NCBI RefSeq assembly: GCF_001423265.1
Contig: NZ_LMND01000012.1
Coordinates: 69,501 to 133,500, forward strand
Direction of reading: 5' to 3'
Length of the DNA: 64,000 bases
From: Methylobacterium sp. Leaf108
GTDB taxonomy: Bacteria; Pseudomonadota; Alphaproteobacteria; Rhizobiales; Beijerinckiaceae
Shown: one piece after another, positions 11,184-57,742 of the stretch
Position numbering within the stretch: the first letter of the stretch is position 1
How the letters are laid out: every line of letters begins with the position of its first letter
Notes under the pieces: generated by a model
Database searches by the model: none
What the model was told of the DNA's origin: nothing
What the model saw: the letters and a program-made list of their open reading frames with translations, nothing else
Position numbers and translations under genes: made by a program

Positions 11184-11505
11184 GGACGGCAAACTGGTGG
11201 TCGCCGGCTGTTCGTCCGCGCGGACAGCTTCCGCGATCGACGGACCGCGCACGATGATGGCCAGCAGAATTCAAGCTTGTGCACCGAGTTCGTTCAGAAC
11301 TGGCCCCGGTTCTCAGCCGTCTCGTATCAGGTCGCGCGCTTCGGATCGACCAAGCTGAAGGGGCTTTCCTCTCTACCTTCGGGGGAGGGACCAAGGATGG
11401 AGGCGGCTGGGCAACCCTCCGCGTCAGACCAGCGAAAACGCCGCCGCCTCCCAGCAAGGGGTAAAAGCGGCGCGAAAATTTCGCCGGAGCGTCACGCAGT
11501 GGGCC

Positions 11506-42980: not shown

Positions 42981-44794
42981 CGCGTCTCCTCGCTCATGGC
43001 GGCACCCGGCGCGATCTCACGCTCGCCCCGCGCCAGGATGCGCTCCAGCACGTCGATCCGGTCGGCCTCCGCCGAGGGCTTGTCCCAGCGGATGCGGCTG
43101 ACGCGTGGAAAGCGCATGGCCACCCCCGACTTGTGCCGGGTGGAGCGCTGCACGCCCTCGAAGGCGATCTCCAGCACCAGCCCGGTCTCCGGCCCGTAGG
43201 CGACCTCGCGCACCGGGCCGAACCGCTTCGTGGTGTTGTTGCGGACGTAGCGGTCGAGCTTGGCCAGTTCGGCGTCGGTGAAGCCGTGGTAGGCCTTGCC
43301 CACCGGCACCAGTTCCTCGCCGCCGCCCTCCACCGTGCGCCAGCAGCCGAAGGTGTAGTCCGAGTAGAACGACGAGCGTTTCCCGTGCCCGCGCTGGGCG
43401 TACATCATCACCGCATCGACCACGTGCGGTTCGCGCTTCCACTTCCACCAGGGCCCCTTGGGCCGGCCGGGCAGGTAGGGGCTGGTGCGCCGCTTCAGCA
43501 TCACGCCCTCGATGGCGTCGGCATCCGCCCCGGCCCCGGCCGACGCCGGATCGGCGCGCGCCGCGGCCAGGTCCTCCCAGGTCGCGAAGGGCACCAGCGG
43601 CGACAGGTCGATGCGGGCGTGGTCGAGGCCGCCGACGAAGGCCTCGAGCCGGGCGCGCCGCTCGGTGAAGGGCATCTCGCGCAGGTCCTCGCCATCGGCC
43701 GTGAGAAGGTCGTAGGCCCGCACGTGGGCGGGAAACTCCTCCAGCAGCTTCCCCGTCACCGACTTGCGGTTGAGCCGCTGCTGCAGGACGTTGAAACTCT
43801 GGACGCGCTCGTCACGCAGGATCAGCAATTCGCCGTCGAGGGTGCCCTCGAAGGCGATGGCCTCGGCGAGGTCCGGAAAGGCACCGGAGATGTCCTCGCC
43901 GGTGCGCGAGTAGATGCGTGCCACCTGTGTGCCTTCGGCGTCGCGCCCGCCCGCAAGCTGGACGCGGATGCCGTCCCACTTCCACTCGCCGGAGAAATCG
44001 GCCGGGTCGAGCTTGTCGAAATCGGTCTCCTCCTCGATCGGGTGCGACAGCATCGGCGGCCGGAACGGCGCCGGGTTGAGGGTCTGGGGCCGTTCCCCCC
44101 TGCCCTCCACCCAGGCGAACAGGGTCGCGTAGGGGGGCTCGAGCCCGTGCCAGACCTCCTCGACCGCATCGGCCTCGTGCCCGCCGAGCGCCCCCACCGC
44201 GGTCTTGGCGAGCCGCGCCGAGACGCCGACCCGCAGCGACCCGGTGATGAGCTTCAGCAGCGCCCACCGCCCGGTCTCGTCGAGGGCATCGAGCCAGTCG
44301 GCGATGTGGCCGGGGAGATCGGACTTCTTCGTCGTGGCGAGGGTGTCGACGACCTCCCCGAGGGTGGGGATGTGGGGCGGCGGGTCGTTGTGGCCGATCG
44401 GGGGGGGACTCCCCTCTCCCTCGTGGAGAGGGATCGGGGTAGCCGAGCGCCCCCGGGCTGCGCCGAGCGGAACCACACCCACCTCCACCGTCTCCCCACG
44501 AGGGGGAGGAGAGGCCGCCGAGGGTCCCGGCCAGATCAGCGCCGTGGTCTCGGCGAGATCGCCGACGTAGTTGTACGACAGGCGGAACAGCACCGGGTCG
44601 ATCCGCGCCTCCACCAGCCCGCGGATCATCCCCGCCTTGGCCTCGCGGAAGGTCAGCCCGCCGGTCATCGCGGCCAGCGCGTAGCCCCGCTCGGGATCGG
44701 GGGCATGGGCGAAATAATCCTGCAGCAGGCGCAGCTTGGCGTTGCGGCGCGGCTCGTAGGCGAGCCGGTCGAGGAGATGGGCGAAGTCGTTCAT
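42977..44794 (-). CDS. ATP-dependent DNA ligase (cisplatin damage response type)
   Basis: A 605-residue ligase. The nucleotidyl-transferase lysine is Lys272 in SGEWKWDGIR, and later motifs include DGELLI, EGVMLKRR and PWWKWKR. The N-terminal DNA-binding domain (1-240) is interrupted at about residues 95-133 by an insertion encoded by a palindromic element (44409-44511), in frame and without stops. The family acts in interstrand crosslink or cisplatin damage repair beside an MBL-fold exonuclease and often an Lhr-type helicase. The ATG at 44794 overlaps the exonuclease stop. Confidence 0.9.
   Translation of the reverse strand: MNDFAHLLDRLAYEPRRNAKLRLLQDYFAHAPDPERGYALAAMTGGLTFREAKAGMIRGLVEARIDPVLFRLSYNYVGDLAETTALIWPGPSAASPPPRGETVEVGVVPLGAARGRSATPIPLHEGEGSPPPIGHNDPPPHIPTLGEVVDTLATTKKSDLPGHIADWLDALDETGRWALLKLITGSLRVGVSARLAKTAVGALGGHEADAVEEVWHGLEPPYATLFAWVEGRGERPQTLNPAPFRPPMLSHPIEEETDFDKLDPADFSGEWKWDGIRVQLAGGRDAEGTQVARIYSRTGEDISGAFPDLAEAIAFEGTLDGELLILRDERVQSFNVLQQRLNRKSVTGKLLEEFPAHVRAYDLLTADGEDLREMPFTERRARLEAFVGGLDHARIDLSPLVPFATWEDLAAARADPASAGAGADADAIEGVMLKRRTSPYLPGRPKGPWWKWKREPHVVDAVMMYAQRGHGKRSSFYSDYTFGCWRTVEGGGEELVPVGKAYHGFTDAELAKLDRYVRNNTTKRFGPVREVAYGPETGLVLEIAFEGVQRSTRHKSGVAMRFPRVSRIRWDKPSAEADRIDVLERILARGEREIAPGAAMSEETR
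44409..44511 (-). repeat. Palindromic element inserted in frame within the DNA ligase gene
   Basis: Imperfect inverted arms at 44409-44429 (ctcccctctccctcgtggaga) and 44491-44511, whose reverse complement is similar (ctcctccccctcgtggggag). They share the core ccctcgtgg and enclose about 60 bases with further GC-rich pairing (cgcccccgggctgcg). The translated product, with LHEGEG and PPPRGE, looks like the protein readings of palindromic repeats known in other alphaproteobacteria. The element lies in a linker of the N-terminal domain. Confidence 0.7.
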
Positions 44795-57548: not shown

Positions 57549-57621
57549 GATCCCGAAGATCGGGACGATGAGGGCGACGATGCCGGTCAGGTGTCACTCG
57601 CTGACGACGGAGGGAAAACGC

Positions 57622-57662
57622 GAAAAGACCGCTGCGCGCGTCAGGCGCGAAGCGGTCTTTTC
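57622..57662 (-). terminator. Rho-independent terminator of rpmB, possibly bidirectional
   Basis: A perfect 12-bp stem, GAAAAGACCGCT (57622-57633) and AGCGGTCTTTTC (57651-57662), with inner GCGC pairing. T-rich sequence follows on the minus strand after the stem (TTTTCGCGTTTT). It lies 80 bases after the rpmB stop and just upstream of the AEC gene. Confidence 0.8.
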
Positions 57663-57678
57663 GATGGACACAACCTCG

Positions 57679-57706
57679 ATCCGATCCTTGGGATCCGATC
57701 CTTGGG
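57679..57706. repeat. 14-bp perfect tandem duplication in the rpmB 3' region
   Basis: The unit atccgatccttggg occurs at 57679-57692 and 57693-57706. It lies between the rpmB stop and its terminator. No function is evident. Confidence 0.85.
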
Positions 57707-57742
57707 GCCGGCACGCGCTTCGACGTGCCGACGCATCGCCGG

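Follow-up and report, generated by a model that had tools for sequence, protein, structure and literature searches.

Results

The ligase gene and its palindromic element

Within the window, by which we mean the whole 64-kb stretch of DNA that was analysed, the reading frame of an ATP-dependent DNA ligase gene runs unbroken from end to end (Table 1). The source genome measures 4.47 Mb. The ligase matches the TIGR04120 profile with 834.1 bits against a curated cut-off of 400, and K272, W, D and G275, which we take to be the nucleotidyl-lysine motif, are invariant in all 36 aligned ligase rows. The gene upstream is presumably a 'ligase-associated exonuclease'. Related ligases among solved structures number 33; an AlphaFold2 model based on 36 close relatives had a mean pLDDT of 49.7, too low for placing the linker, and was therefore kept out of the evidence.

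Table 1. Genes and sequence features at the ligase locus, in positions of the window.
Feature	Position	Strand	Basis
ATP-dependent DNA ligase, cisplatin damage response type, 605 aa	42977..44794	-	TIGR04120, Pfam DNA_ligase_A_M and DNA_ligase_A_C
Gene upstream of ligase, 345 aa	44791..45828	-	Open frame; overlaps ligase start
Ligase linker, residues 93-135, recurrent insertion site	44390..44518	-	Length variation across 94 genus loci
Type-e palindromic element, member of a dispersed family	44404..44518	.	Similarity to genome copies; inverted repeat
Inverted repeat, first arm	44403..44430	.	
Inverted repeat, second arm	44492..44519	.	

The linker in the N-terminal part of the ligase contains an imperfect palindrome of about 115 bp, which encodes residues 93-131 and has two 28-nt arms that are 82% complementary. 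An in-frame inverted-repeat element inside this linker had been claimed in a preliminary description of the sequence, and the arms together with the open frame of 605 aa confirm it. That description had picked out the right element and drawn it slightly short (44409-44511, residues 95-133), since similarity to other copies lengthens it to about 44404-44518 and shifts the encoded residues accordingly. The best ungapped inverted-repeat score of the element, 13, was equalled by 2 of 500 dinucleotide shuffles and was attained in 4 of the 983 131-base windows laid over the 64 kb, the element itself included. The top inverted repeat of the same scan lies at 57591-57721 (score 16) and by eye is a T-flanked, terminator-like hairpin. 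The DNA folding energy of the element is not exceptional (z -0.48; 62 of 200 shuffles fold equally well or better), because the sequence is very G+C-rich.

The preliminary description had staked its reading on further copies in the genome and on the lack of a conserved segment common to all orthologous ligases. Both were found: other copies exist, and the orthologues do not share the segment. The genome holds seven further matches to the window's element, which we call type e, at E<=1e-3 and 71-86% identity, a level at which these copies are old; three of them (71-74% identical) span most of the element's length, and the arms are common to the copies while the loop differs. Terminal inverted repeats, as in MITEs, are present, and the type-e copies yielded no transposase and no clear target duplication. 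When occupied and near-empty orthologous sites were compared by eye no clear target-site duplication was seen, the IS-type search covering PF01797. A pattern search for CCCCTCTCCC...GGGAGAGG in the same genome returned nothing, and Rfam gave no match for four element loci. One record in the plasmid collection, from Methylobacterium bullatum, was matched in five places, and the place listed carries no annotated feature. Elsewhere in the window, a 53-nt segment at 11382-11434 weakly matches part of a type-e copy (E 3e-5).

Recurrent insertion into the linker

Linkers could be read in 94 of 99 Methylobacterium-group genomes, the match lying at a contig end in the other five (G014, G022, G042, G092 and G098). 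They range from 21 to 357 nt, all of them multiples of three and none with a stop codon; 49 are at least 60 nt long and 45 are shorter. Beyond the genus, 25 linkers from the 89 other genomes of the family with a match (L110 is a genus duplicate) are likewise multiples of three without a stop, and 13 of the 25 reach at least 60 nt. In G022, G042 and G092 the ligase gene is split between two contigs, with the break near the linker, as a repeat could cause.

In an alignment of 75 ligases (74 of 80 loci plus the window sequence), only residues 94-129 vary greatly in length. The remainder shows single-residue gaps, two rows with a block of at most 18 residues at 139-141, and a C-terminal end that varies by up to 8 residues, where the matches were cut. 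The upstream exonuclease-like gene, which served as a length control, never differs in length by 45 nt or more among the 74 loci covered out of 80. As judged from these comparisons, the linker is a recurrent site for several element types, which goes beyond what the reading of a single sequence could show.

Types and dispersal of the inserts

The 49 long genus inserts appear to fall into at least eight types by manual typing, which consisted of DNA clustering followed by labelling by hand: a (18 inserts), b (7), c (3), d (7), h (3), and e (that of the window), f and g (1 each), with composites a+f (2), d+b (1) and e+b (1) and four inserts without clear type. The 18 type-a and 3 type-c rows separate unaided in the script clustering, which by itself places b, d, e, h, both a+f rows and others in one group of 23 because G+C-rich arms are common to types b, d, e, f and h; the split among these five is therefore manual. 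Nested or paired elements occur in four linkers (L026, L040, L041 and L046).

Three types (a, b and c) are high-copy dispersed families. Type a gave 77, 84, 91, 11 and 11 matches in G010, G067, G043, G000 and G051, type b gave 65, 78, 41, 1 and 0 in G040, G008, G019, G075 and G033, and type c gave 59, 53, 14, 8 and 0 in G033, G060, G025, G010 and G000, all of these being match counts rather than copy numbers because palindromes often match both strands and at most 40 candidates per genome were scored. Among type-c copies, CGTC is found near an end in 21 of 22 compared with 13 of 22 in the control. Neither tag is in excess in type e (GTAG 0 of 7, control 2 of 7; CGTC 2 of 7, control 4 of 7), and types a and b have no clear excess of GTAG or CGTC. 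A profile search for the Y1/RAYT domain PF01797 found none in the window's genome; the domain occurs in 13 of 99 genus genomes and is absent from the match-rich G008, G010, G033, G040, G043, G060 and G067. Mobilisation by a present-day RAYT/Y1 transposase is unlikely.

On a tree built from the ligase core with the linker removed, the typed linker states of 112 rows require 33 changes, compared with a minimum of 48 changes in 200 label shuffles, which indicates inheritance plus frequent change of linker types. This count is without seven rows that have no clear type (L020, L021, L031, L038, L105, L106 and L111); with these treated as a state of their own, there are 40 changes over 119 rows. Sister species often differ in insert type, and one small clade mixes a (L012, L014), d+b (L040) and e+b (L041). 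Judged by eye, L023 and L039 resemble remnants of type a: each has the start of its left arm fused to the right arm, a shape that would be expected from deletion between short repeats.

Constraint on the predicted insert peptide

The ligase frame is open in every one of the 49 genus inserts, whereas each of the other five is open in 17-33 of them. By a counting method that presumes homology among inserts of one type, dN/dS of the inserts is 0.85, 0.77, 0.67 and 0.64 for types a, b, c and d, whereas the ligase cores of the same rows give 0.07, 0.14, 0.12 and 0.11; the core of the window ligase against six relatives gives 0.13-0.21. The enzyme is thus conserved and the insert peptide close to neutral. 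Copies outside the ligase that cover at least 85% of the reference (34 of 36 for type a, 7 of 39 for b and 13 of 22 for c) are uninterrupted in the ligase frame in 22 of 34, 5 of 7 and 6 of 13 cases, respectively. We infer that the insert-bearing ligase is made and active.

Copies in other genes

Among 104 copies outside the ligase (a 36, b 39, c 22, e 7), six passed a test for an in-frame position inside a gene, which required that one and the same open frame give the best score to either side of the copy; none of the seven other type-e copies of the window's genome passed. The test omitted the partial matches of G051, G000, G019 and G075 (L142, L143, L147, L148, L152, L156, L157, L161, L162, L166, L167, L170, L171, L174, L177, L180, L183, L186, L189, L192 and L195). 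A looser in-frame test flagged, ligases aside, L007, L142, L155, L157, L162, L167, L175, L177, L187 and L188, several of which sit in frames of only 50-63 aa. L007, of type e, lies just ahead of a frame that by eye resembles dihydrolipoamide dehydrogenase.

One of the six passing copies (L223) has poor coding scores. Single in-frame copies are seen in a penicillin amidase-like gene (L155), a CobN-like gene (L225) and a PepSY_TM-like gene (L232, below the cut-off). The remaining two are in an ImuB-like DNA polymerase gene: L221 matches the IMS family, and L213 matches, within Pfam, DUF6504 alone and was also matched by the ImuB-like query. The C-terminal linker of this gene, read in 31 loci (L210 yielded nothing), measures 60-147 nt in 27 and 258-369 nt in four (L213, L366, L369 and L370), all four matching the element library, L366 over 25-32 nt only. 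Because L213 had been picked for holding an element, the fair count is 3 of 30. In this linker, which belongs to a second repair-type gene, element types also differ among genomes.

An intergenic dock

The surroundings of one type-b copy in G008, picked since both flanks scored as coding, define an intergenic spacer that behaves like the ligase linker. Six of the seven relatives carry an element there, of four types altogether: b in G008, a in G088 and G004, d in G003 and G034, and e in G084. By eye, the same spacer in G075 has a short hairpin only. The 16-20 kb stretches around the spacer (n=7) contain two further elements, both in G008, and the 20 kb stretches around the ligase (n=7) contain one. 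Over a stretch of about 100 kb around the spacer, the seven element sites of G008 comprise the dock, one site held in common with G003 (same type) and five private sites, the comparison here being with G003 and G075 only (72 and 78 kb aligned). The corresponding stretch around the ligase, compared with G003 and G034 only (about 50 kb), has one further G008 site, which is private (1 of 2). Docks look like a minority of element sites. The genome G075 (4.7 Mb; L397, L403) shows a mere hairpin or remnant at both docks and a single type-b match; it may have lost its elements.

Discussion

Sequence comparison documents copies elsewhere in the genomes, several types per site, a kept frame, absence from many orthologues, a near-neutral peptide and a conserved enzyme core. 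We consider it likely that a dispersed palindromic element of about 110 bp, MITE- or REP-like, was caught in frame by a length-tolerant linker that serves as a long-lived dock. The linker would repeatedly receive different palindromic elements, genus- and family-wide, some of them arriving beside or inside earlier ones, and the inserted elements would then erode to small in-frame remnants, with loss proceeding through deletion between short repeats. Selection would preserve the frame and purge stops while the peptide otherwise drifts, so that the enzyme core stays conserved. Insertions into genes would probably be mostly lost, and the ligase linker would tolerate them where frame and stops permit. 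Both the spacer and the ligase linker have taken up different types time and again, which suggests that a palindrome draws in other palindromes or is swapped for them; we infer that elements preferentially settle on, or take the place of, a palindrome already present at a tolerant site. In a stronger form of this reading, which we rate as somewhat doubtful, palindromic elements of Methylobacterium would move chiefly onto, or in place of, resident palindromes. Fixed chromosomal docks, including the one in the ligase gene, would then cycle through unrelated types over species time without RAYT, each turn adding new peptide to a repair protein.

The serious rival to palindrome targeting is tolerance only, in which elements insert at random anywhere and the ligase linker is among the very few harmless in-frame coding positions, with no targeting or exchange of palindromes. 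This is a real possibility that falls short of being probable. It accords with insert peptides that are close to neutral, with a protein length that varies at one place, and with the fact that most other element sites are private. However, spacers should on this account accept inserts widely, yet one spacer has taken up four types in six of seven relatives while its surroundings, seven stretches of 16-20 kb, hold just two further elements; the nested or paired elements in four linkers also speak against it. A further way to obtain variety is gene transfer instead of new insertion, with homologous recombination through the conserved flanks swapping whole linkers between species. Such swapping would explain why close relatives differ in type although their ligase cores are similar, and why the core tree shows frequent changes of typed state, but the element families are dispersed within the carrier genomes, which means that a local source suffices, and we regard recombination as unlikely.

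A selected function of the insert, such as tuning of linker length or binding of a partner, might be read from dN/dS values somewhat below 1 and from inserts of one type that persist across clades. Against this, nearly half of the genus linkers (45 of 94) are shorter than 60 nt, length and sequence vary widely, and the peptide evolves almost at the rate of silent sites, which makes such a function very improbable. Slippage or local expansion of the linker, without any mobile element, would fit its G+C-richness and variable length; this origin was rejected and has next to no chance of being correct, because the inserts match dispersed copies over at least 100 bp (types a, b, c and e).

At this single gene position nature has run dozens of replicates, among them different types, nestings, remnants and short sites, and it has done so in a free-living genus from which many isolates have been named. 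Three questions become testable with them: by what route elements move without RAYT, whether a palindrome attracts others of its kind, and how an enzyme is affected by a palindrome that is translated.

Relation to known systems

The preliminary description likened the element to those of Rickettsia, and the likeness holds for a dispersed palindromic element in frame in the linker of a DNA-repair ligase. Rickettsia palindromic elements are described as dispersed palindromes of 100-150 bp that are often in frame within genes (PMC10969869, PMC2229807). By description, ours resemble them in being palindromes of about 115 bp with copies elsewhere and open in the host frame. They differ in that the hosts are free-living and G+C-rich, that most sampled copies lie outside genes, and that one gene position is re-used by several types. 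In Wolbachia, inserts like the Wolbachia palindromic elements (WPE) are reported in frame in the repair genes addA, addB and priA; the genes and host here are others, and that account, as far as the portion consulted goes, describes no multi-type site (PMC4224334).

According to a 2013 report, some of the GTAG- and CGTC-tagged REPs, which are short palindromes, occur in replication and repair genes, including a DNA ligase of Opitutus terrae, and CGTC REPs lack a dedicated transposase (PMC3733652). Type c is possibly a member of the CGTC-tagged REPs, whereas the window's type e, which lacks tag excess and is longer than a single REP, is unlike the GTAG/CGTC REPs. The same 2013 report (PMC3733652), along with long linkers in 49 of 94 genus loci and ImuB-like inserts in 3 of 30, gives no support to the first view of the ligase insert as an isolated oddity. 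REP palindromes also serve as landing sites for IS elements (PMC1525189); such IS elements carry a transposase, whereas here short elements would appear to land on, or replace, short elements. For M. extorquens, the genome paper names one IS-related MITE of about 400 bp (PMC2680597). The titles and beginnings of abstracts searched, which cover subscription journals thinly and so count as weak evidence, name no such insert in a Methylobacterium ligase.

In-frame palindromes in Rickettsia and Wolbachia have thus been published before, as have REPs within repair genes, one of them a ligase gene; what is new is the genus-wide, multi-type dock within one gene.
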